A DNA stretch of 64,000 nucleotides from Vulcanisaeta souniana JCM 11219. GTDB lineage: Archaea > Thermoproteota > Thermoprotei > Thermoproteales > Thermocladiaceae. The stretch spans positions 1,883,056 to 1,947,055 of the forward strand of contig NZ_AP026830.1 in NCBI RefSeq assembly GCF_026000775.1. The letters are read 5' to 3'. How positions within the stretch are numbered: position 1 is the first letter of the stretch; each line of letters opens with the position of its first letter. Below are positions 1,423-45,649 of the stretch, one piece after another. A program made the translations under genes and the position numbers. The notes under the pieces were generated by a model, which was not told the origin of the DNA, did not search any database, and saw only the letters and a list, made by a program, of their open reading frames with translations.

Positions 1423-2388
1423 GTGGAGAAGCTGTATAAACTTAGTGGGTTCGCTAAGTTGAAGAAGTTGTCAAAGACCCTTAAGAGAACAGTAGTGTTA
1501 GAGGGATGGACCAACAGGACTGGTAGACAAGCTCTCAGAGAAATTACTGAAGCATATAGAAGTATGCTACAGGAAATGCTTGACTACGCCGTGGAGAATG
1601 GGGCCTCACAATCAACACTGCACAGAGTCTTCTACCACAGGTTTCGTGAACAATACCCATGGCTACCCACTAGGGTCATCAAGAGTTGCTATAGGGATGC
1701 TGTTAGGAGGGCTAAGTCCTTCAGGGAGTTGAAGAGGAAGGGATTAGCTAGGACAGATAAACCAGTAGTGAGAAACGTGACTATAACCTATTCTGATCTG
1801 CAAGATTGGAGACTAGAGAATGGCGTTATCAAGGTAAGGACTCATAGAGGATGGGTAGAGATACACTATAGGGGTCATAAACAGCTACATAGATACCTCT
1901 ATAATGGGTGGAAACTCTCTAGTGAGTTAAGACTTAAAATAAGTGGCGGAGGGGTTATTGTCTACTTGACGTTTACGAAGGACTTCGAGGTAGTGTATGA
2001 TTCACGCAATGTCGTGGCTGTTGATGTTAATGAAAACAATGTTACATTAGCTCTATTCAAGGATGAGAGTCTACATGAAGTCTATAGGATAGATACTGGT
2101 CTTGGAAGAATAGTTATTGCCTATGCTGAGAGGCGGAGAAGGATAACCAAGGGTAGGTCTACTAAGATTAGGAGTGTGAAGAAGGTGCTTAAGAAGCTTA
2201 GGGAGAGGGAGAGGAAGCAGGATGTAATCTATAAGACTTCCAAGATAATTGAGGAGATTGCAGAGAAGAATAATGCAGTTGTAGTTGTGGGTAATGTTCA
2301 TAAAGGTAAGAGGAGACTAGTTAATAACGTTAAGAAGAACACGTTAAGGCATAGAATTCACAAAGGGTTAGGAAGCCTCGCCCTTTAG
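1423..2388 (+). pseudogene. tnpB: TnpB (IS605 OrfB family), C-terminally truncated
   Basis: Starts at a GTG with a TATA-like AAATACTTTTAAA about 35 bp upstream and encodes 321 residues. It has the basic N-terminal region, RuvC-I (VVAVDVNEN, Asp present) and the region preceding the expected RHRIHQW motif. At LRHRIHK the frame runs into the terminal hairpin of the neighbouring leftward element and stops. RuvC-III and the zinc ribbon are therefore missing and the protein cannot be an active nuclease. The RuvC-II position reads VVVGN, with no Glu where one is expected. Basic residues are abundant, as in RNA-guided TnpB proteins. Similar proteins normally have about 400 residues. Confidence 0.8.
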
Positions 2389-3495
2389 GGCGGGGAGGTA
2401 TTTTAATGCCCAATGTAGTGGTACATTGTCTCTTTCTTCCTCAAACCCACACCTGGGGCACGCCATTATCCTAGCATGCCTTGTAGCCTTCACTAACTTT
2501 AACCCAGCCTCGCACCTGGGGCATACTGTACTGTAGAGTCTCCTCTCTTCCCAGTAGACGCCGTACCATGATAAGACATTCTCCAAATACTTCGCAAAGG
2601 ATCGCAGGGTTCTTTGTAGGCTTGACCCCCTTAGGCTCTCATCATTCGGTACATCAATGAGGACTAGTGGTTCTTTACCGTGCCTCCTGGCAATCCTCCT
2701 AACCCTCATGACAATCCTATCCACGGTTTGCTGAATCCACGACTTCACACCCCCACCCAGCGTCATCCTTATTAATGAGGAGTACACGTTAATCTGCCTC
2801 TGGGTCAGGCACCCCTGGTTGTAGAGGTTATCCCTCAGCATCATCAGCCTCCTGGCGTGTAGCCACCTGCCACCCCTGTTGGGTGACCTATACTTCTCAG
2901 TCTTTATCAGCCTGCCATCTCAGTAATGCACCACAATACCGTGGGAACTGTTGAGGTCGACAACCACGAGGAGTGGGTTCCTTGGCGATTGAACAATGCA
3001 CCTCCTGTGGAGGATTATTTGTACAACGAGCTTACCATTCCTCTCGAAAACCCTCACACTCTTCTCATCTGGCTTCTCAGCCAGCCTCTTGCTTAACCAC
3101 TCCAATGCGCGCTTAGGTATCTCAATCTCCACTTTCTTATTAAGCCTAAGGATTAGCCTCCCATCCTTTATGAAGGCACCCTTCCTTTCATGCAGGGCAT
3201 CAACCAGCGGTATGTTTAGTAACATGGAATGAGGCATTGGCGTCTCCTCTATCCCCTTAAACAGGTACATTGGGTCTCCCTCATCAATCAGGTGCCAGCG
3301 CCAGTATGATTTTACCTCCTCATTTATTCCCTTCAATACTTCCTCAGACGGCTTCAGCCCAAGCCTCCTAGCCCAGTACAGGTGGGATGCCAGGGCTTGG
3401 TACCTCCTAATGAATTCCAGAACCTCCCCATCCACCCTAGCCGTTAGCGTCAGGACTCTGAAGCCCTCCTCAACCCTCAGTGGCGACAATAACAA
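2368..3495 (-). pseudogene. tnpB: TnpB-like RuvC nuclease interrupted by one in-frame TGA
   Basis: Two leftward frames, 2920-3495 and 2368-2919, are in the same register and separated only by TGA at 2920-2922. Joined, they give about 375 codons. RuvC-I is VVVDLNSSHGIVVHY, and the stop falls where Trp is likely (HY-stop-DG). A basic arginine-rich region follows, then RuvC-II (LVLIDVPNDE, Asp in place of Glu), a zinc ribbon (CPRC ... CPRC) and RuvC-III (RDNVPLHWAL). The TTG start overlaps the end of the small AbrB-like gene by 26 bp. The last codons run through the terminal hairpin. A G-to-A change in TGG would explain the stop; otherwise the gene looks intact, so decay is recent or the base is an error. 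Confidence 0.75.
2376..2395 (-). repeat. Terminal hairpin of leftward TnpB element
   Basis: An inverted repeat of 8 bp arms (one G-T pair) with a TTTA loop sits across the 3' end of the leftward TnpB frame. It has the same form as the hairpin at 3805-3825 and marks the right end of this element family. Confidence 0.6.
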
Positions 3496-36921: not shown

Positions 36922-37215
36922 CTATTTTCTACTCCTATTTTTCATAAGTTCTTCATAGACTCCCATTATTATTTCATGTCTCCTCTTCACCTTTCTCTCA
37001 AGGTCATATAACTGAGTCCTTAACCTATAAAGCTCGCTTCTCAGTTTATTCGTTCTATTAACCAGCTCTAGTTCGCTGGGTGTTAATATGTATTCGAAGT
37101 TCGCGTTTGGTTTTAACGTCCTTAGTACTAAGTATATGTCTAGTTTGCTAAAGCCTTTGCTTCTAAGTTCATTTATTACGCTTGTTATTTCCTTAGCTTG
37201 TGAAATTGAAAGCAT
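36922..37215 (-). CDS. Small coiled-coil protein next to a pilin
   Basis: 97 residues from the ATG at 37215, which lies inside the 3' end of the pilin gene (23 bp overlap), so translation is coupled. The N-terminal half looks like a small helical DNA- or protein-binding unit (INELRSKGFSKLDIYLVLRTL), and the C-terminal half is a Leu/Arg heptad coiled coil (NKLRSELYRLRTQLYDLE). There is no membrane segment. It could be a regulator or assembly factor for the pilin. Not recognised as any family. Confidence 0.5.
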   Translation of the reverse strand: MLSISQAKEITSVINELRSKGFSKLDIYLVLRTLKPNANFEYILTPSELELVNRTNKLRSELYRLRTQLYDLERKVKRRHEIIMGVYEELMKNRSRK

Positions 37216-37420
37216 TAGAAACCACCTTCTGAAGATCATTTATGAAACCACCCAGGGCATTATTAACGGAGTTCTGCAGGTGCATTATGCCATTAACAGT
37301 ATTACCAAACAACCCACTAATTAGTGATACGAGGGCTACGAGTACGGCCATCGATATCGCTATAAGAAGGACCTCCTCAATGAATATATCCCCTCTCCTT
37401 CTTATTTTCATGTTCATCAA
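37193..37420 (-). CDS. Minimal type IV pilin-like protein
   Basis: 75 residues. The start MKIRRRG followed by DIFIEEVLLIAISM is a class III signal peptide: basic residues, Gly at the processing site, Glu at mature position 5 and a long hydrophobic helix. The mature part would be only about 65 residues, the helix plus an amphipathic tail, much smaller than usual archaeal pilins, which have a beta-sheet head. A TATA-like CCTTAAATATG lies about 25-30 bp upstream. It overlaps the coiled-coil gene. No pilus ATPase or prepilin peptidase is in this window. Confidence 0.6.
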   Translation of the reverse strand: MMNMKIRRRGDIFIEEVLLIAISMAVLVALVSLISGLFGNTVNGIMHLQNSVNNALGGFINDLQKVVSNAFNFTS

Positions 37421-39899: not shown

Positions 39900-40322
39900 T
39901 CACGGAATACCATCATTAACTCTACTTATTATTTTTACCTTGAGTCCCTCCTCGTCATAATTAACGTCAAGGTCAATGGCACCCCTCTTCTTAAGGACTC
40001 TAATTGCATCAATTAATAACTGCTTCTCCTGGGAAGATACTTTGGCCAATGCGTCATTTAAATCCTCGGAATTATTTATGATACTTAAGTACTTACCTAT
40101 TAAGGCTGAGTTTAGGTCTATCGAGGGCGCGTTTCGCTCAAATATCAGGCCATGAGCCGCCGAGTCGGCCATTGAATATATATTCAGTACTACGTCAGAC
40201 AAGGACACGCACTTGGTAATTATGTCATTTATCAATGAAGATAATTCCGAGAGCTCAGGATACTTACTCTCCAGTCTATTCATTAATATCCTTAATTCAC
40301 TTATCTTCTCGATCAGGTCCAT
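39900..40322 (-). CDS. Small helical protein, last gene of helicase-protease operon
   Basis: 140 residues from the ATG that follows a TATA-like TTTTTAATC by about 22 bp; a longer frame from 40394 would contain that box. It is almost entirely helical with a charged N-terminal coiled coil (IEKISELRILMNRLESKYPE) and a C-terminal pair of strands (IDLDVNYDEEGLKVKII). No membrane segment is present. It follows the M48 protease gene by 68 bp. Not recognised; it could be a soluble partner of the operon proteins. Confidence 0.45.
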   Translation of the reverse strand: MDLIEKISELRILMNRLESKYPELSELSSLINDIITKCVSLSDVVLNIYSMADSAAHGLIFERNAPSIDLNSALIGKYLSIINNSEDLNDALAKVSSQEKQLLIDAIRVLKKRGAIDLDVNYDEEGLKVKIISRVNDGIP

Positions 40323-40390
40323 TATGCCTAAGTATTGATTAAAAATGAAAATTAAACTAACCATTAAATTAAGCCACGAAATACACCCAT

Positions 40391-41641
40391 TCACTTTATG
40401 GAGGCGATCCTAATTAATCTACCTGAAACCGATGGATGAGAACTAAGAACTCTCGACCTCTTACTCGCTAATTCCTGATGCAGCTCCTTCCAGGTAACCT
40501 TAATCAACGCCATGGCTAAGTCCTTACCCGGTATGAACTTCATTGCGTATTTATCCGCAGAGTACTCGCTGAACCGCATAGTGAGTAATATCATGAATAA
40601 CTCCATGAATAAAGCACCAATTAGTATGGGTATCGCGGGTAGACTCATTAGCGGTATTATGTATGTTATTAACGCAATATTCACCAACTGGCTTAGTGAT
40701 ATCAGGAACAGGGCCTTCGCCGAGTCACCGTGAACGATGTGGCCAACCTCATGCATTATTACCGCGGTTAATTCATCACTATTTAGGCATGAAACCAGCC
40801 TTGAGGTTAATATAACATAGTTAATGCCGGGCAAGCCTATTGACGCGGCATTGCATTGATCCATGTTTATCAAGTAAATGCCATACTTCTTAACCCCTAA
40901 TTTGTCAAGTATTGAACTAATACTTATCACCTCTTCATTATATGCCTGCGGTTTTGTACCTGGATTATTAACCAACGTCATTATGAACCTCCTGATCTCT
41001 GTCAATGATTTTATATTCTCGATTCTAGATAGAAAACGTAGTGCTTCATTGAACCTCTGTTCATCGAATTCCCCATACTCGAGCGTTATTTTTATTATTT
41101 CGGAATTTCTTAGGTTTCCCCATCTTATCTTAAGCTGGAGAATGTATGAGTATATTATTGGTATAATGAGCGGTGATAACAACATTAATATTATTATGTG
41201 CATTGAAAGTATTACATTCATTATCCTTAATATTGTTATCACTATGGATATTATCATTATTAGTAATATTACAAGCCCTATTAGACCAACAGGTAATGAT
41301 CGCATTCTTGGCAAATCATTAACCCTGTAAACCCTATTACCCCTACGCAGAAGTAGTACTGTTATTTTACGCGCACCGTTGGTGCCCAAGTACCTTAGAA
41401 CCAGAGCGTTTAGGAGGACCTTAACCTTATCGTGTCCCTTAATCCTTATCTCGTGGTTTATACTTAGTTCAGCATTTCCGTGCTCATTACTTACTATTAA
41501 CCTCGTGACATCATTATTGATTTCCCTCTCTATGTATGGTATTCCAATAACGCTCAACAAATAACTCTCTATGTAATTAATTAGGGATTGAGGATCTTTT
41601 ATTAAATCACGGATTATTTGATATATCCTTATTGCCGCCAT
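40391..41641 (-). CDS. M48-family membrane metalloprotease (HtpX-like)
   Basis: 416 residues. The zinc motif is HEVGHIVHGD with a distal Glu in FSEYSADKYAM. Two hydrophobic helices lie before the protease domain (about residues 115-170) and two more after the zinc motif, as in HtpX, with the active site on the cytoplasmic side. The N-terminal 110 residues form an extra cytosolic domain not typical of HtpX. The start overlaps the upstream winged-helix gene by 35 bp, giving tight coupling within a DNA-helicase operon, which is an unexpected context for a quality-control protease. Confidence 0.8.
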   Translation of the reverse strand: MAAIRIYQIIRDLIKDPQSLINYIESYLLSVIGIPYIEREINNDVTRLIVSNEHGNAELSINHEIRIKGHDKVKVLLNALVLRYLGTNGARKITVLLLRRGNRVYRVNDLPRMRSLPVGLIGLVILLIMIISIVITILRIMNVILSMHIIILMLLSPLIIPIIYSYILQLKIRWGNLRNSEIIKITLEYGEFDEQRFNEALRFLSRIENIKSLTEIRRFIMTLVNNPGTKPQAYNEEVISISSILDKLGVKKYGIYLINMDQCNAASIGLPGINYVILTSRLVSCLNSDELTAVIMHEVGHIVHGDSAKALFLISLSQLVNIALITYIIPLMSLPAIPILIGALFMELFMILLTMRFSEYSADKYAMKFIPGKDLAMALIKVTWKELHQELASKRSRVLSSHPSVSGRLIRIASIK

Positions 41642-42065
41642 TCGTGGCTGTTTGTGCCAGGTTTATTTTTTGGGCATTAGCTAATTCCCTCAGCATATTT
41701 ATACTTGTATTACCTCTTCTCGTGGTCTTATAACCGTCAATAAAGGTCAGTATCTCATGGACATTATTATGCTCAAGTATTAACCAAAACTCGGTATCCC
41801 TTATTATACCGTAAACCTTGCCTCTAGCGCTCCTCTTAATAACCTTAACAAGCCCCAGCTCAACGAGTTCCTCAAGGAAATTCCTAACTATGACCGATTC
41901 CGAACGCGGGCTTTTCCTGGTCCATATAGATATGTCCTGGGCAACCTTCGCAGGTCTAAAGGTTATTAATTGACCCTTTGCGTTGAGGATCATGTCCTTT
42001 AGCATCTGTAGGATTAGGATTTTCACCTTCCTCGTGTCTATCATTAGGTTTTCCGTTGCTGTCAT
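41607..42065 (-). CDS. Winged-helix DNA-binding protein
   Basis: 152 residues. Residues 15-90 look like a winged helix (KILILQMLKDMI, RPAKVAQDISIWT, RNFLEELVELGLVKVIKRSARGKVYGII). The C-terminal 50 residues are polar and rich in Asn, Thr and Gln, like a disordered tail. It may regulate its own operon or be the DNA-binding part of the complex. It lies 105 bp after the HerA-like gene, and its end overlaps the M48 gene. Confidence 0.6.
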   Translation of the reverse strand: MTATENLMIDTRKVKILILQMLKDMILNAKGQLITFRPAKVAQDISIWTRKSPRSESVIVRNFLEELVELGLVKVIKRSARGKVYGIIRDTEFWLILEHNNVHEILTFIDGYKTTRRGNTSINMLRELANAQKINLAQTATNGGNKDISNNP

Positions 42066-42170
42066 CAGTGCACCAAGGTTCCCGTATATATCTGCTTAAA
42101 TAAATAAATTCAGAAATTGTGACACCCTCGTTCTTACGCATCACCAGAGTCTCATATGGCGCTTTTATTA

Positions 42171-43553
42171 TTAGCTATTTGTGTTATTTTTCAATTTCCC
42201 ATCAAACTCCAGTATCCTCTCAATAACCTTTTCATCGGCATCTAATATTCTCTCTATTTCATTAACCTTATCACGTAAATTAATAACCTCCCTCTCCAGC
42301 TCCATCACTTGCCTCCTGAATAGAGACTCATCTTGACCAGAGTTGACACTCGGTGGGGGTCCCTTATTGCCATCAAAATTACCCAATGCCTTACCATTAT
42401 TAGAATCAGTACCCAGACTGCCATTATTTCCAGTAGCTGAGTGATTAGTGACCTTGGGCTTTAAATTATTGTTATCAGCATTTACATCAGCATTAACTAA
42501 ATCATCGGTAGGCGCCTTGTCTTCTTCATGGTTAAATCTCCTAATAACCACATGAGCTGGCAACACCGACGCCCTTAGTGGTCTTATTTTGGCGATGCCT
42601 CTGCCCGTTATTACTATGGCCTCGTCTGTCGATATCTCACTCAGTTTATTGATTAAATCCCTCGAGAGGGACACGTCATTATCCAAAAGCCCTGGATTTA
42701 TCTTGAAGAGAATTATGTTGCAGTGTTTCAATATTAATGATTTTGGAACCACGTTACTTACGAGTATCGTCCTCAAGCCGTACTTCGCCAATTCCATTAT
42801 CACATGATCAACGATTGAATAACTGGGGCCATTTATATCAATCAGGTTCTGGGCCTCCTCAATGATTAATACATGCCTAACCCTCCTTTCTATTAATCCC
42901 TTTCTCATGTAGTTCATATAAAGCGCAGCCAATATTAATGACGAAACTAACCTTTTCTCTTCAATAATTGTTAAATCACTGAGATCCACGATAGCGTCAC
43001 CTTCCATAAGCGCCTCAATACTTACGATACCCTTACCAATGTTCATAGCCGAGTACTCAAGTCTCCTTAGGATGGCTGCCTTCATTTCTGCCTCAGTCCT
43101 TGTATTGACAAGGTAATTATCTATCCTCCTTATTAAATCGTTGAAGCTTGAATACCCACCATCACGTATTATTCTATAAAGCATGTACATACTTGGCTCA
43201 TTAAGGCCAAGACCAAAACCGAGAATTTCAGTTAGCAATTTAGGTGGTATTTTTTCGAGGTCTATGTTTATGGCTGACGTAGGCAGCGTAGGTAATATTC
43301 CCGTGTATTCTCCATGCCAATCAAGTGCGGTTACCACGTATTTTTGACTTAGTTCCTTAATCATCGCCTTAACTAGGGATGACTTACCACCCCTGGTGGG
43401 ACCCAGTATACATAGGTGCTTGTCAAACGGTATCCTGTAAGGCATAAGAAAGCGAGTACCCACTGTGACACCTTCAATTGAGTAACCCCTTAACAACGAT
43501 ATCACTGCTAACGAGGCAGGTACCGCAAGGGCGCCAATACTCAGTATGTCCAT
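42171..43553 (-). CDS. HerA/VirB4-like ATPase with N-terminal membrane anchor
   Basis: 460 residues. A hydrophobic segment at residues 3-22 is followed by Walker A (GPTRGGKS, 51-58), the HerA-type DWHGEY (78-83), Walker B (VLIIEEA, 228-234) and a C-terminal ITGRGIAKIRPL strand. HerA proteins are hexameric DNA translocases that normally pair with the nuclease NurA; no NurA is in this operon. A low-complexity Asn/Gly/Asp linker (about 345-400) leads to a coiled coil (LEREVINLRDKVNEIERIL). The membrane anchor and coiled coil set it apart from repair HerA and resemble DNA-transport motors such as CedB or VirB4, which I cannot distinguish. Confidence 0.72.
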   Translation of the reverse strand: MDILSIGALAVPASLAVISLLRGYSIEGVTVGTRFLMPYRIPFDKHLCILGPTRGGKSSLVKAMIKELSQKYVVTALDWHGEYTGILPTLPTSAINIDLEKIPPKLLTEILGFGLGLNEPSMYMLYRIIRDGGYSSFNDLIRRIDNYLVNTRTEAEMKAAILRRLEYSAMNIGKGIVSIEALMEGDAIVDLSDLTIIEEKRLVSSLILAALYMNYMRKGLIERRVRHVLIIEEAQNLIDINGPSYSIVDHVIMELAKYGLRTILVSNVVPKSLILKHCNIILFKINPGLLDNDVSLSRDLINKLSEISTDEAIVITGRGIAKIRPLRASVLPAHVVIRRFNHEEDKAPTDDLVNADVNADNNNLKPKVTNHSATGNNGSLGTDSNNGKALGNFDGNKGPPPSVNSGQDESLFRRQVMELEREVINLRDKVNEIERILDADEKVIERILEFDGKLKNNTNS

Positions 43554-43602
43554 AAAGTCTCATTAAAGGAGGCCCCAGGTAGGTTAATAAGGCACTAATT
43601 AA

Positions 43603-45195
43603 TCACCAGAGCGATGTGTTTAGGAATTGAGAAATACTTATGGGCTTCATCCTAGACATAAGCCACTTGGGCATGTACTTTCTATAACGATAAAACCTAC
43701 CATCCAACAGTACGGCAACCTTCTTATGCCTATCCAAATCCCTTAGTAACCTGCCAAGTATTTGTGTAGTTGTTGATATTGCGGGGAAGAGAAACGATAC
43801 CATAAACCCACCAATCCCCAATTTCTGGTAATACCGTGACTTTAGAAAACTCCATTGACTGTATTGAGGAAGCGGAAATCCAATAATCATGGCACCAATC
43901 AATTCCTGTTCAAGGAAGTTTATACCCTCACCAATTGGGTTCTGGGCATATGTTATCACCAGCGATTTCGTAGTCCTCGCACTCTCCTTAAACGGACCTA
44001 CTAGGCCCATGGCCTCGGAACCATCCCTAAGGATAAACGTTGGTATTCCCCAAACTGGTGGCGAGTAATTATTGACGTAAGTATTCATGTACTCAATACT
44101 TGGAAAGAAAACGGCCAGCCCTCCTATTGGTGGCGCTGACTCAATGAACGCCTTAATGCCCCTGTGGGCAATATCGAGGTACTCCTTCATTAGCCTGTTA
44201 CGAAACGTGAACTCGACGTCCATTACGGAGAAAACAGTGAAGTTCTCCTGGTACTCTCTGGGTAGGGAATCCACCGCTATGTAATGTGATGACCTAGGAA
44301 GGACCCTCATTATATGTGAGAACCTACTGCTAATTGATGCCGTGAGGAGGAGAGCCTTGTGCGCCCTCACTATTAAGTCGCGTATTGGTTTGAACGAGAG
44401 ACACCTCAGCCTAATTAATTTACCATCATAGGTGAAGGCGCATAGGTCGGTACCGTAATGCGTAAGTATTTCAATAACCTTGTCATTAAACGATTCAGAA
44501 CCCTCAAGAAGGTCATCAATTTCGAATTTCCTTAAAACCACGATTTCTCCCTGCGGTACATAACCCCTTATCCTACTGAATATTTTCCTGGCTAGGCCAT
44601 TACCATTTAATACCCACTGCCTTAACTCATCTATATCAATGTCTATGGAGGTCTCGAGACCTGCGATGACATTGTGGAACTCATCAATTATTACCAATGA
44701 TTTATCCCAGGAACCCATTATATTCATTAACCTGCCATAAAGTTCAGGACTTGATAGGTAGGCATGTGTTGATATTAATATGGGTAATTGAAAAGCTAGC
44801 GCCTCATTTACCTCATATGGGCATGAACCACTATTGTACAGCTCAAGTGGTTCGCAGGTAAGGGTTGGCTGCGGCACCGCGGCCTTACCAACCCTACACC
44901 TACCACTTAATCTATATAGGAGGCATTGCTTGGCGTTACTGGCATTAAAGGGGCACAGAGATTCCCTACCCAGTAAAATGATTGTTTTATCCCTAATATC
45001 GAACTGCTTCGTGAACCCACAGAGCTGTAGTGCCTCCGCCTTGGACCTAGTCATTATGAGTACACGGCCTCCATCATCAACCCACCTCTTCGCCAGACCC
45101 ACTGCTATTCTTGACTTACCAAAACCAGGGTATGCATTAAGAAGGATCACGTCCTTTTTCTTCAGTAATGAGTATACGTAATTATTAATGTCCAT
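43603..45195 (-). CDS. XPD/Rad3-type Fe-S DNA helicase
   Basis: 530 residues. Motif I is AYPGFGKS (21-28). Cysteines at about 81, 91, 100, 114 and 125, ending GSCPYE, correspond to the Fe-S domain of XPD/DinG helicases. Motif II is DEFH (171-174, in place of DEAH). C-terminal motifs are GEGINF and QILGRLLRD. It should be a 5'-3' helicase. Its divergence from canonical XPD (DEFH box, short Arch region) and its position in an operon with a HerA-like ATPase suggest a specialised role rather than general repair. It starts 49 bp after the 45239 gene. Confidence 0.8.
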   Translation of the reverse strand: MDINNYVYSLLKKKDVILLNAYPGFGKSRIAVGLAKRWVDDGGRVLIMTRSKAEALQLCGFTKQFDIRDKTIILLGRESLCPFNASNAKQCLLYRLSGRCRVGKAAVPQPTLTCEPLELYNSGSCPYEVNEALAFQLPILISTHAYLSSPELYGRLMNIMGSWDKSLVIIDEFHNVIAGLETSIDIDIDELRQWVLNGNGLARKIFSRIRGYVPQGEIVVLRKFEIDDLLEGSESFNDKVIEILTHYGTDLCAFTYDGKLIRLRCLSFKPIRDLIVRAHKALLLTASISSRFSHIMRVLPRSSHYIAVDSLPREYQENFTVFSVMDVEFTFRNRLMKEYLDIAHRGIKAFIESAPPIGGLAVFFPSIEYMNTYVNNYSPPVWGIPTFILRDGSEAMGLVGPFKESARTTKSLVITYAQNPIGEGINFLEQELIGAMIIGFPLPQYSQWSFLKSRYYQKLGIGGFMVSFLFPAISTTTQILGRLLRDLDRHKKVAVLLDGRFYRYRKYMPKWLMSRMKPISISQFLNTSLW

Positions 45196-45238
45196 AACGC
45201 CAATAAATAAATGCTCAAGTCAATTAATTAGGCACTGA

Positions 45239-45649
45239 TTAGGCAGATGGTTCATAAATACGTGTCTTGGATCCCTCAAGGAATTTCTTCTTGACATTTT
45301 TCATTTCATTAAAAGCATCATTAATCGCATTAAGTACCTTGGAATTTGACTTAACCTCGTCAAGTTCCTTGCAATTATTTAGCATTTTCTCGAATAATTC
45401 ATCAACTATCCTATCAGGTAGCCTCTCGAGGGCTTGACCGTATATCTTTGGTAACTCCTCACTTATGAACTTCACTACATCGTCAATACCCTCCCAATTA
45501 TCCTCCGCCTGTCTAATTATCGCCAATATCGTCTCTAGGCTATATCTTTCGTCAGCGGATAATTTATTATCATCGATATCCAGGTAGGTCCTATTTAGGC
45601 AATACCTAACGAACCTGTATATTAATGGATTTATGTTTAATGTGGACAT
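45239..45649 (-). CDS. Small helical protein, first gene of helicase-protease operon
   Basis: 136 residues, entirely helical and acidic, not recognised (YSLETILAIIRQAEDNWEGI, LPDRIVDELFEKML, INDAFNEMKNVKKKFLEG). There is no membrane segment or Cys cluster. A TATA-like ATTTTTAAAG lies about 25 bp upstream of the ATG at 45649, so this is the promoter-proximal gene of the six-gene leftward operon. It could be an adaptor for the helicase. Confidence 0.5.
   Translation of the reverse strand: MSTLNINPLIYRFVRYCLNRTYLDIDDNKLSADERYSLETILAIIRQAEDNWEGIDDVVKFISEELPKIYGQALERLPDRIVDELFEKMLNNCKELDEVKSNSKVLNAINDAFNEMKNVKKKFLEGSKTRIYEPSA

Follow-up and report, generated by a model that had tools for sequence, protein, structure and literature searches.

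The DNA analysed here (the window) is a stretch of 64,000 nt from Vulcanisaeta souniana JCM 11219, positions 1,883,056 to 1,947,055 of contig NZ_AP026830.1. It contains a six-gene operon, designated A to F, whose retention and loss across the genomes of its order go hand in hand with those of a second locus. The open reading frame (ORF) listing of this 2.43-Mb, one-contig genome places all six genes on the minus strand. Gene A (45239..45649) is the first of the operon and encodes a predicted soluble helical bundle of 136 aa. It is followed by gene B (43603..45195), which encodes a 530 aa iron-sulfur (Fe-S) helicase of the XPD/Rad3 family, and gene C (42171..43553), which encodes a 460 aa membrane-anchored ATPase of the HerA/FtsK superfamily that falls in the CedD clade. 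Gene D (41607..42065) encodes a winged-helix-like protein of 152 aa and is present in all operons; gene E (40391..41641) encodes a 416 aa M48 (HtpX/Ste24-like) membrane metalloprotease. Gene F lies at 39900..40322 within an ORF of positions 39900–40394 and encodes 140 aa from a conserved ATG. Alignment of homologues and the sequence itself place the start of F at this in-frame ATG at 40322 and not at the GTG at 40394.

The genes are closely spaced, with gaps of 43 bp (A-B), 49 bp (B-C) and 105 bp (C-D), and D and E overlap by 35 bp. The original prediction, made from the letters and a list of ORFs, described six genes in one direction with Walker, Fe-S and HExxH motifs and a hydrophobic N-terminus on the HerA-like protein, and ORFs, alignments and hydropathy agree with that description. 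All six are real genes, and their catalytic motifs are intact. A promoter had been proposed solely before position 45649. This could not be established, as TATA-like AT-rich stretches are also found upstream of D and F. The TATA-like TTTTTAA upstream of A is kept across Vulcanisaeta. In Pyrobaculum and Thermoproteus gene A comes directly after other co-directional genes; the preceding gene in four Thermoproteus loci (L056, L057, L059 and L061) looks by eye like one for ribosomal protein L31e.

The protein encoded by B matches Pfam Helicase_C_2 (1.5e-16) and DEAD_2 (6e-5) and aligns over nearly its whole length with archaeal XPD structures at a profile E-value of about 1e-35. The Walker A motif AYPGFGKS (45112..45135, minus strand) consists of residues that are invariant in the alignment. 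Four invariant Fe-S-type cysteines, C81, C91, C100 and C125, span 44821..44955 (minus strand), and motif II, DEFH, is at 44674..44685 (minus strand). Across 12 homologues the Walker A motif, the four cysteines, DE(F/A)H and QxxGRxxR do not vary. The canonical XPD of the same genome is at C1:1792781, and B, the second copy, is a true XPD-family member and a paralogue of the canonical protein. It thus resembles the XPD/Rad3 helicases in its Fe-S cysteines, helicase motifs and near full-length alignment, but differs from them in being a second copy and in a motif II–III segment that is shortened in Pyrobaculum and Thermoproteus. This segment, the site of the Arch domain in XPD, is about 115 aa in the Vulcanisaeta proteins and about 35 aa in Pyrobaculum and Thermoproteus, where the whole protein has shrunk to about 400 aa. 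XPD is a helicase of 5'-3' polarity with roles in repair and transcription.

The protein encoded by C matches DUF87 (4.6e-10). An N-terminal membrane helix (residues 3–25; 43479..43547, minus strand) is indicated by hydropathy and by a helix in the AlphaFold model. Walker A, GPTRGGKS, aligns at 43380..43403 (minus strand), and a Walker B motif is also present; both are invariant among relatives. In the model the membrane helix leads into two strands and the ATPase core, after which a disordered linker connects to a C-terminal helix of 50 residues (42180..42332, minus strand). The closest folds to the model are those of DndH, HerA and VirB4. Pyrobaculum and Thermoproteus have a separate coiled-coil ORF of 57–72 aa between C and D. 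This is a possible counterpart of the C-terminal helix, although the alignments do not prove that it is a split-off tail.

In a maximum-likelihood phylogeny built from 45 ATPase domains, the C family is one clade (support 100/100) within a superclade (95/94). The other members of this superclade are CedD of Sulfolobales and related proteins of Desulfurococcales, Thermofilum-like and other lineages. Outside it are TedB, which forms a separate clade, and repair-type HerA, represented by two copies from the same genome. The CedD profile NF053655 ranks C first in the genome (7.6e-20), with a score of 71 bits that does not reach the curated cut-off of 600 bits. On the tree and this profile C is therefore assigned to the CedD clade, but it is not CedD by the curated definition. 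CedD itself (SiRe_1715), of the Ced system of Sulfolobales, is essential for DNA import (PMC11868833); it has in common with C the membrane helix, the HerA-type ATPase core and the clade. The differences are the VirB4-like N-terminal domain, which C lacks, the low profile score, and the setting of C in an operon with XPD and M48 genes.

HerA ordinarily pairs with NurA, and the original prediction would have been contradicted by a grouping of C with the NurA-linked repair HerA. Such a grouping was not found. C has the HerA-superfamily core of the HerA-NurA and HerA-Mre11-Rad50 repair systems but is without the HAS-type N-terminal domain and is outside the repair clade. The repair HerA copies of the genome are separate from C, and one is beside Mre11-Rad50-like genes. 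There is no NurA gene adjoining the operon, and the three NurA matches are all elsewhere in the genome. A NurA-HerA repair role for C was rejected on the tree and the genomic context. Genome G000 carries, at 937–941 kb, two adjacent HerA/VirB4-superfamily ATPases of 707 aa (with membrane helices) and 573 aa (L082:7836-11667). This pair is present in genome G004 as well (L151), and the tree puts it with neither C nor repair HerA.

Gene E encodes matches to Peptidase_M48 (7.6e-22) and Ste24p (3.5e-16). The zinc-binding sequence HEVGH aligns at 40739..40753 (minus strand), and H297, E298, H301 and E359, which make up HExxH and the downstream ExxAD, are invariant. E has HExxH, ExxAD and membrane helices in common with the HtpX/Ste24 M48 membrane proteases. 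It differs from these in scoring far below the HtpX equivalog cut-offs, in the long divergent N-terminal region of the Vulcanisaeta proteins, and in its operon context. The presence of a helicase, a pump and a metalloprotease in one operon could signify repair of DNA-protein adducts, with B and C unfolding or moving a DNA-bound protein and E degrading it at the membrane. In eukaryotes an XPD-family helicase acts with a DNA-linked protease. However, E is of the membrane HtpX/Ste24 type and not the SprT type, and this explanation, which is given little credence, does not account for the co-occurrence with a secretion ATPase described below.

A has a conserved F-x-R-x-C-x-N-x-x-Y motif and an AlphaFold model of 5–6 helices (pLDDT 85), for which there is no fold relative in the PDB at E<=0.001. 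A PADLOC match of A to PDC-M48B (1e-4) is probably noise from helical composition, because E, the M48 protein encoded nearby, gives no match to that model. D looks like a winged helix from its sequence pattern, with no significant family or structure match. F appears to have N-terminal helices and a winged-helix-like C-terminus.

Conservation of the operon was determined by a search for C in 61 genomes, extraction of 40 enlarged loci, and iterative hidden Markov models (HMMs) for the operon genes. The order A-B-C-D-E is kept in Vulcanisaeta, in g3 (a genus of the same family), in Thermoproteus and in Pyrobaculum. An ORF of about 120–140 aa follows E in all four genera as well, and F is for this reason considered part of the set. 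The distant versions of F resemble each other weakly; hhalign gives a probability of 84% for alignment A5 against A7. Since the order recurs in four genera whose proteins have roughly 20–45% identity to those of the window, it is more than chance. The genes are rearranged in family f3 (G026), and the operon is split in three Pyrobaculum genomes: C has moved away in G028 and G029, and A-B is separate from C-D-E in G036. Homologues are thus mostly syntenic; had they been scattered in other contexts, this would have counted against the original prediction. The idea, put forward in that prediction, of a conserved DNA-processing module at the membrane with helical proteins as its dedicated partners is supported.

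B and C co-occur, in that the same genomes carry both. In the 61-genome search both are missing from g2 (5 genomes), g4 (3 genomes), g8 (2 genomes) and G039, and outside the order B has matches only at the level of canonical XPD. The operon is therefore not essential for cell division in the order. This bears on the idea that C, like FtsK, translocates or segregates the chromosome at the membrane, where D would stand in for the DNA-reading winged-helix domain. A membrane-anchored FtsK/HerA-superfamily ATPase beside a winged-helix gene is what such a role would call for; with the operon dispensable for division and with no septum-linked gene nearby, it is improbable.

The proteins closest to C come from other Vulcanisaeta contigs, one at 90% identity. 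The genes that flank the operon are housekeeping genes, and pyrG is near it in Vulcanisaeta, g3 and Pyrobaculum. With such flanks, inheritance looks vertical and not that of an island. This pattern is difficult to reconcile with an antiviral defence system, another role that had been proposed. HerA-like ATPases and DinG/XPD-like helicases are found in defence systems, and B and C have superfamily-level PADLOC matches. Yet PADLOC gives no matching system (a weak match for A and none for D, E or F), the conserved surroundings are housekeeping genes, and there is no nuclease or effector. A defence function is considered very unlikely.

The strongest clue is one that the original prediction did not contain: a second locus shares the operon's pattern of retention and loss. 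By its gene content this locus belongs with type IV pilus (T4P) subclade 4D of Thermoproteales, and its ATPase was chosen as the profiling marker because the 4D membrane protein evolves too rapidly to be traced with a profile from one sequence. The query was the window genome's own ATPase, at E<=1e-25, and the main comparison was made with genomes at least 90% complete. The ATPase is present in 18 of 18 operon-positive and in 0 of 7 operon-negative genomes (18 with both, none with one alone, 7 with neither; Fisher test 2e-6, with kinship ignored). When the order is taken as a whole (45 genomes), the corresponding counts are 31 with both, 2 with the operon alone, 0 with the 4D ATPase alone and 12 with neither. 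Operon-negative genomes hold other, lower-scoring secretion-ATPase candidates. At least three joint losses of operon and 4D are required (g2/g4, g8 and G039).

The thermosome neighbourhood of the window genome (L208) consists of a TFB-like gene, a T2SSE ATPase and a membrane protein, and contains no CedD-clade gene. Pyrobaculum and Thermoproteus have the same thermosome-side arrangement. In subclade 4D as described earlier (PMC4858521) the locus is alike in having a secretion ATPase, a membrane protein of 180–253 aa and a TFIIB homologue; in both there is an RNA polymerase subunit-like gene close by and no pilin in the locus. By gene content the partner locus matches the 4D system. That system was termed a "most unusual" pilus-like system in 2016, with a function called unknown and perhaps transcription-related, and no partners beyond the locus and no pilin were reported (PMC4858521). 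Its link to genes A to F and to CedD-linked ATPases is new here.

The 4D locus also has features that point in another direction. It holds a TFIIB-type zinc-ribbon protein, and the neighbouring gene is a weak match to RNA polymerase subunit G. These, together with informational neighbours, the winged-helix appearance of D and F, the known roles of XPD, and the transcription-related pathway proposed for 4D (PMC4858521), would fit a machine coupled to transcription or repair. In such a machine an XPD-like helicase, a TFB-like factor and two pump ATPases would work on cellular DNA close to the membrane, without transfer. Its task might be control of initiation, TFIIH-like opening of DNA or the clearing of stalled complexes, a specific that is, like the general idea, unlikely. 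This is nonetheless the main rival to a transfer function. It does not account for the anchoring of C in the membrane, for the presence of a membrane protease, or for an operon of related lineages, described next, in which an orthologous ATPase and a pilin-like protein occur together. The TFB-like factor matches Sulfolobales TFB3 over the zinc ribbon only, and orthology with that DNA-damage activator is for this reason not claimed. By eye, no motif is common to the sequences upstream of A and of the TFB-like gene. A recurring ACTCTC-type stretch, possibly a regulatory site, is found upstream of the 4D TFB-like gene in several genera (L237–L254).

Lineages f4, f6 and f7 (L077, L079, L092 and L093) have an apparent operon of a T2SSE ATPase, two membrane proteins, a pilin-like protein of 82–87 aa and, last, a CedD-clade ATPase. 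Downstream is an adenylate-kinase-like gene and then, where the contig allows, the thermosome gene. The CedD-linked ATPases of these operons form one clade with the 4D ATPases (100/99), apart from the other T2SSE proteins of the genome. In Sulfolobales cedD also adjoins the thermosome gene, and the orthologous ATPase partners in the related lineages are likewise thermosome-linked; the SSO0283-family neighbourhood was noted earlier (PMC2948915). The thermosome-side location is therefore common to Sulfolobales cedD, the CedD-like genes of f4/f6/f7 and the 4D module of Thermoproteales. In the lineages of L077, L079, L092 and L093, CedD is otherwise known only from contexts like those of type IV secretion systems (T4SS). 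A micrarchaeote locus (L121:6756-14168) has a CedD-clade ATPase near a T4SS pilin (PF18895), a membrane protein with six helices and another HerA/VirB4-like ATPase.

A pilin-like ORF of 75 aa is present in the window at 37193..37420 (minus strand), about 2.5 kb downstream of F, and is not a member of the operon. It matches an HMM built only from the pilin-like proteins of f4/f6/f7 at 2e-7. Among the ORFs of the loci examined, this HMM matched only the homologues from Vulcanisaeta and g3, where the ORF is conserved, beyond its own members. So short and hydrophobic a match says little about function; the position of the ORF near the operon is suggestive, and it is tentatively regarded as an associate. 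Within 36922–37420 it is accompanied by an overlapping coiled-coil ORF of 105 aa, between pyrG and a deoxyhypusine-synthase-like gene; both ORFs are kept in Vulcanisaeta, and the pilin-like one in g3 as well.

A relation to Ced or Ted DNA import had been considered possible in the original prediction. The Ced part is borne out by the place of C in the CedD clade; the Ted part is not. The Ted system of Thermoproteales (PMC9905601) is found in the same archaeal order and has a HerA-superfamily ATPase at or near the membrane, but its ATPase clade, locus and distribution are all distinct from those of the operon. With the same completeness limit, a TedB profile matches 10 of the 18 genomes with the operon and 6 of the 7 without it (10 with both, 8 with the operon alone, 6 with TedB alone, 1 with neither; Fisher test 0.35). 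The absence of TedB from 8 operon-positive genomes and its presence in 6 operon-negative ones led to rejection of a Ted link. HerA-like genes have been reported at Ted loci (PMC9905601), and the window genome has both a TedC-like pilin and TedB, so that the operon might be an accessory DNA-processing module of the conjugation-like Ted system; with such a phylogenetic profile and with unlinked loci, this is extremely unlikely. TedC is too divergent for profiling, with matches in 7 of 61 genomes. The Ted-like cluster of the window genome (L089:5374-10633) contains TedB and the TedC-like pilin (match to 8dft, 1e-4). Its TedB is of the Thermoproteus/Pyrobaculum type, unlike that of most Vulcanisaeta, which suggests horizontal gain. 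In Pyrobaculum and Thermoproteus (L144, L145, L146 and L152), open frames of about 2,800–3,000 aa are directly beside tedC/tedA-like genes.

Genes A to F and the 4D module probably constitute one joint system. The best explanation as a whole, held at almost even confidence, is a single membrane machine whose likeliest task is to carry DNA through the envelope; the odds on a DNA-transfer function are slightly below even. Two points favour DNA as the likeliest cargo: CedD is indispensable to DNA import (PMC11868833), and CedD-clade genes are beside pilus-type or T4SS-pilin genes in several lineages. According to this model the operon would be one half, and the 4D module the other half, of a vertically inherited Thermoproteales machine. 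C would be a membrane-anchored, probably hexameric ring that pumps DNA, and B, as an XPD-type helicase that translocates along a strand, would open the DNA or pull it for C. At the membrane, the TadA-like 4D ATPase would work a pilin or pseudopilin, and E may mature or remove membrane subunits. A, D and F would be adaptors or regulators, D and F with folds of the DNA-binding type. Passage of DNA through the envelope, by uptake or by exchange, would serve recombination, as with Ced in Sulfolobales.

Several observations weigh against a DNA-transfer machine. No channel was identified, in a genome in which CedA, CedA1 and CedB were not systematically searched for. In its model C has no VirB4-like N-terminal domain between the membrane helix and the ATPase. 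A homologue of the pilin-like ORF was not seen in Pyrobaculum or Thermoproteus, and its link to the operon is a short hydrophobic match. Two incomplete metagenome-assembled genomes, G019 and G024 (87% and 69% complete), have the operon without a 4D match, and the p-value of the co-occurrence takes no account of kinship. The transcription-related role suggested for 4D (PMC4858521) is a further point. Finally, the operon in Thermoproteus may be expressed along with translation genes: A follows ribosomal-looking (L31e-like, by eye) genes there, which suggests constitutive expression.

No description of the combined system was found in the open literature searched. The analysis ties together two orphans, the six-gene operon and the 4D pilus-like system, both of which connect to CedD. 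A Thermoproteales counterpart of CedD has not been reported before; the order was assigned VirB4 rather than CedB or CedD (PMC11868833). The system may represent, though this is somewhat doubtful, a third archaeal DNA-transfer machine beside Ced and Ted, with a 4D motor, a CedD-clade pump that is VirB4-less, an Arch-reduced XPD and a membrane protease. An XPD-type helicase that helps to drive DNA over the cell envelope, as such a machine would have, is an equally tentative proposal. If true, helicases of the XPD family also act at the membrane, beyond repair and TFIIH. How Pyrobaculum and Thermoproteus strains without TedB could exchange DNA becomes testable, as does the question of which ATPases move DNA in such systems, which was left open for export (PMC11868833).

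Elsewhere in the window, positions 1423–3495 contain fragments, a 321 aa ORF and its neighbours, that by eye resemble a TnpB/IS605-type transposon protein.

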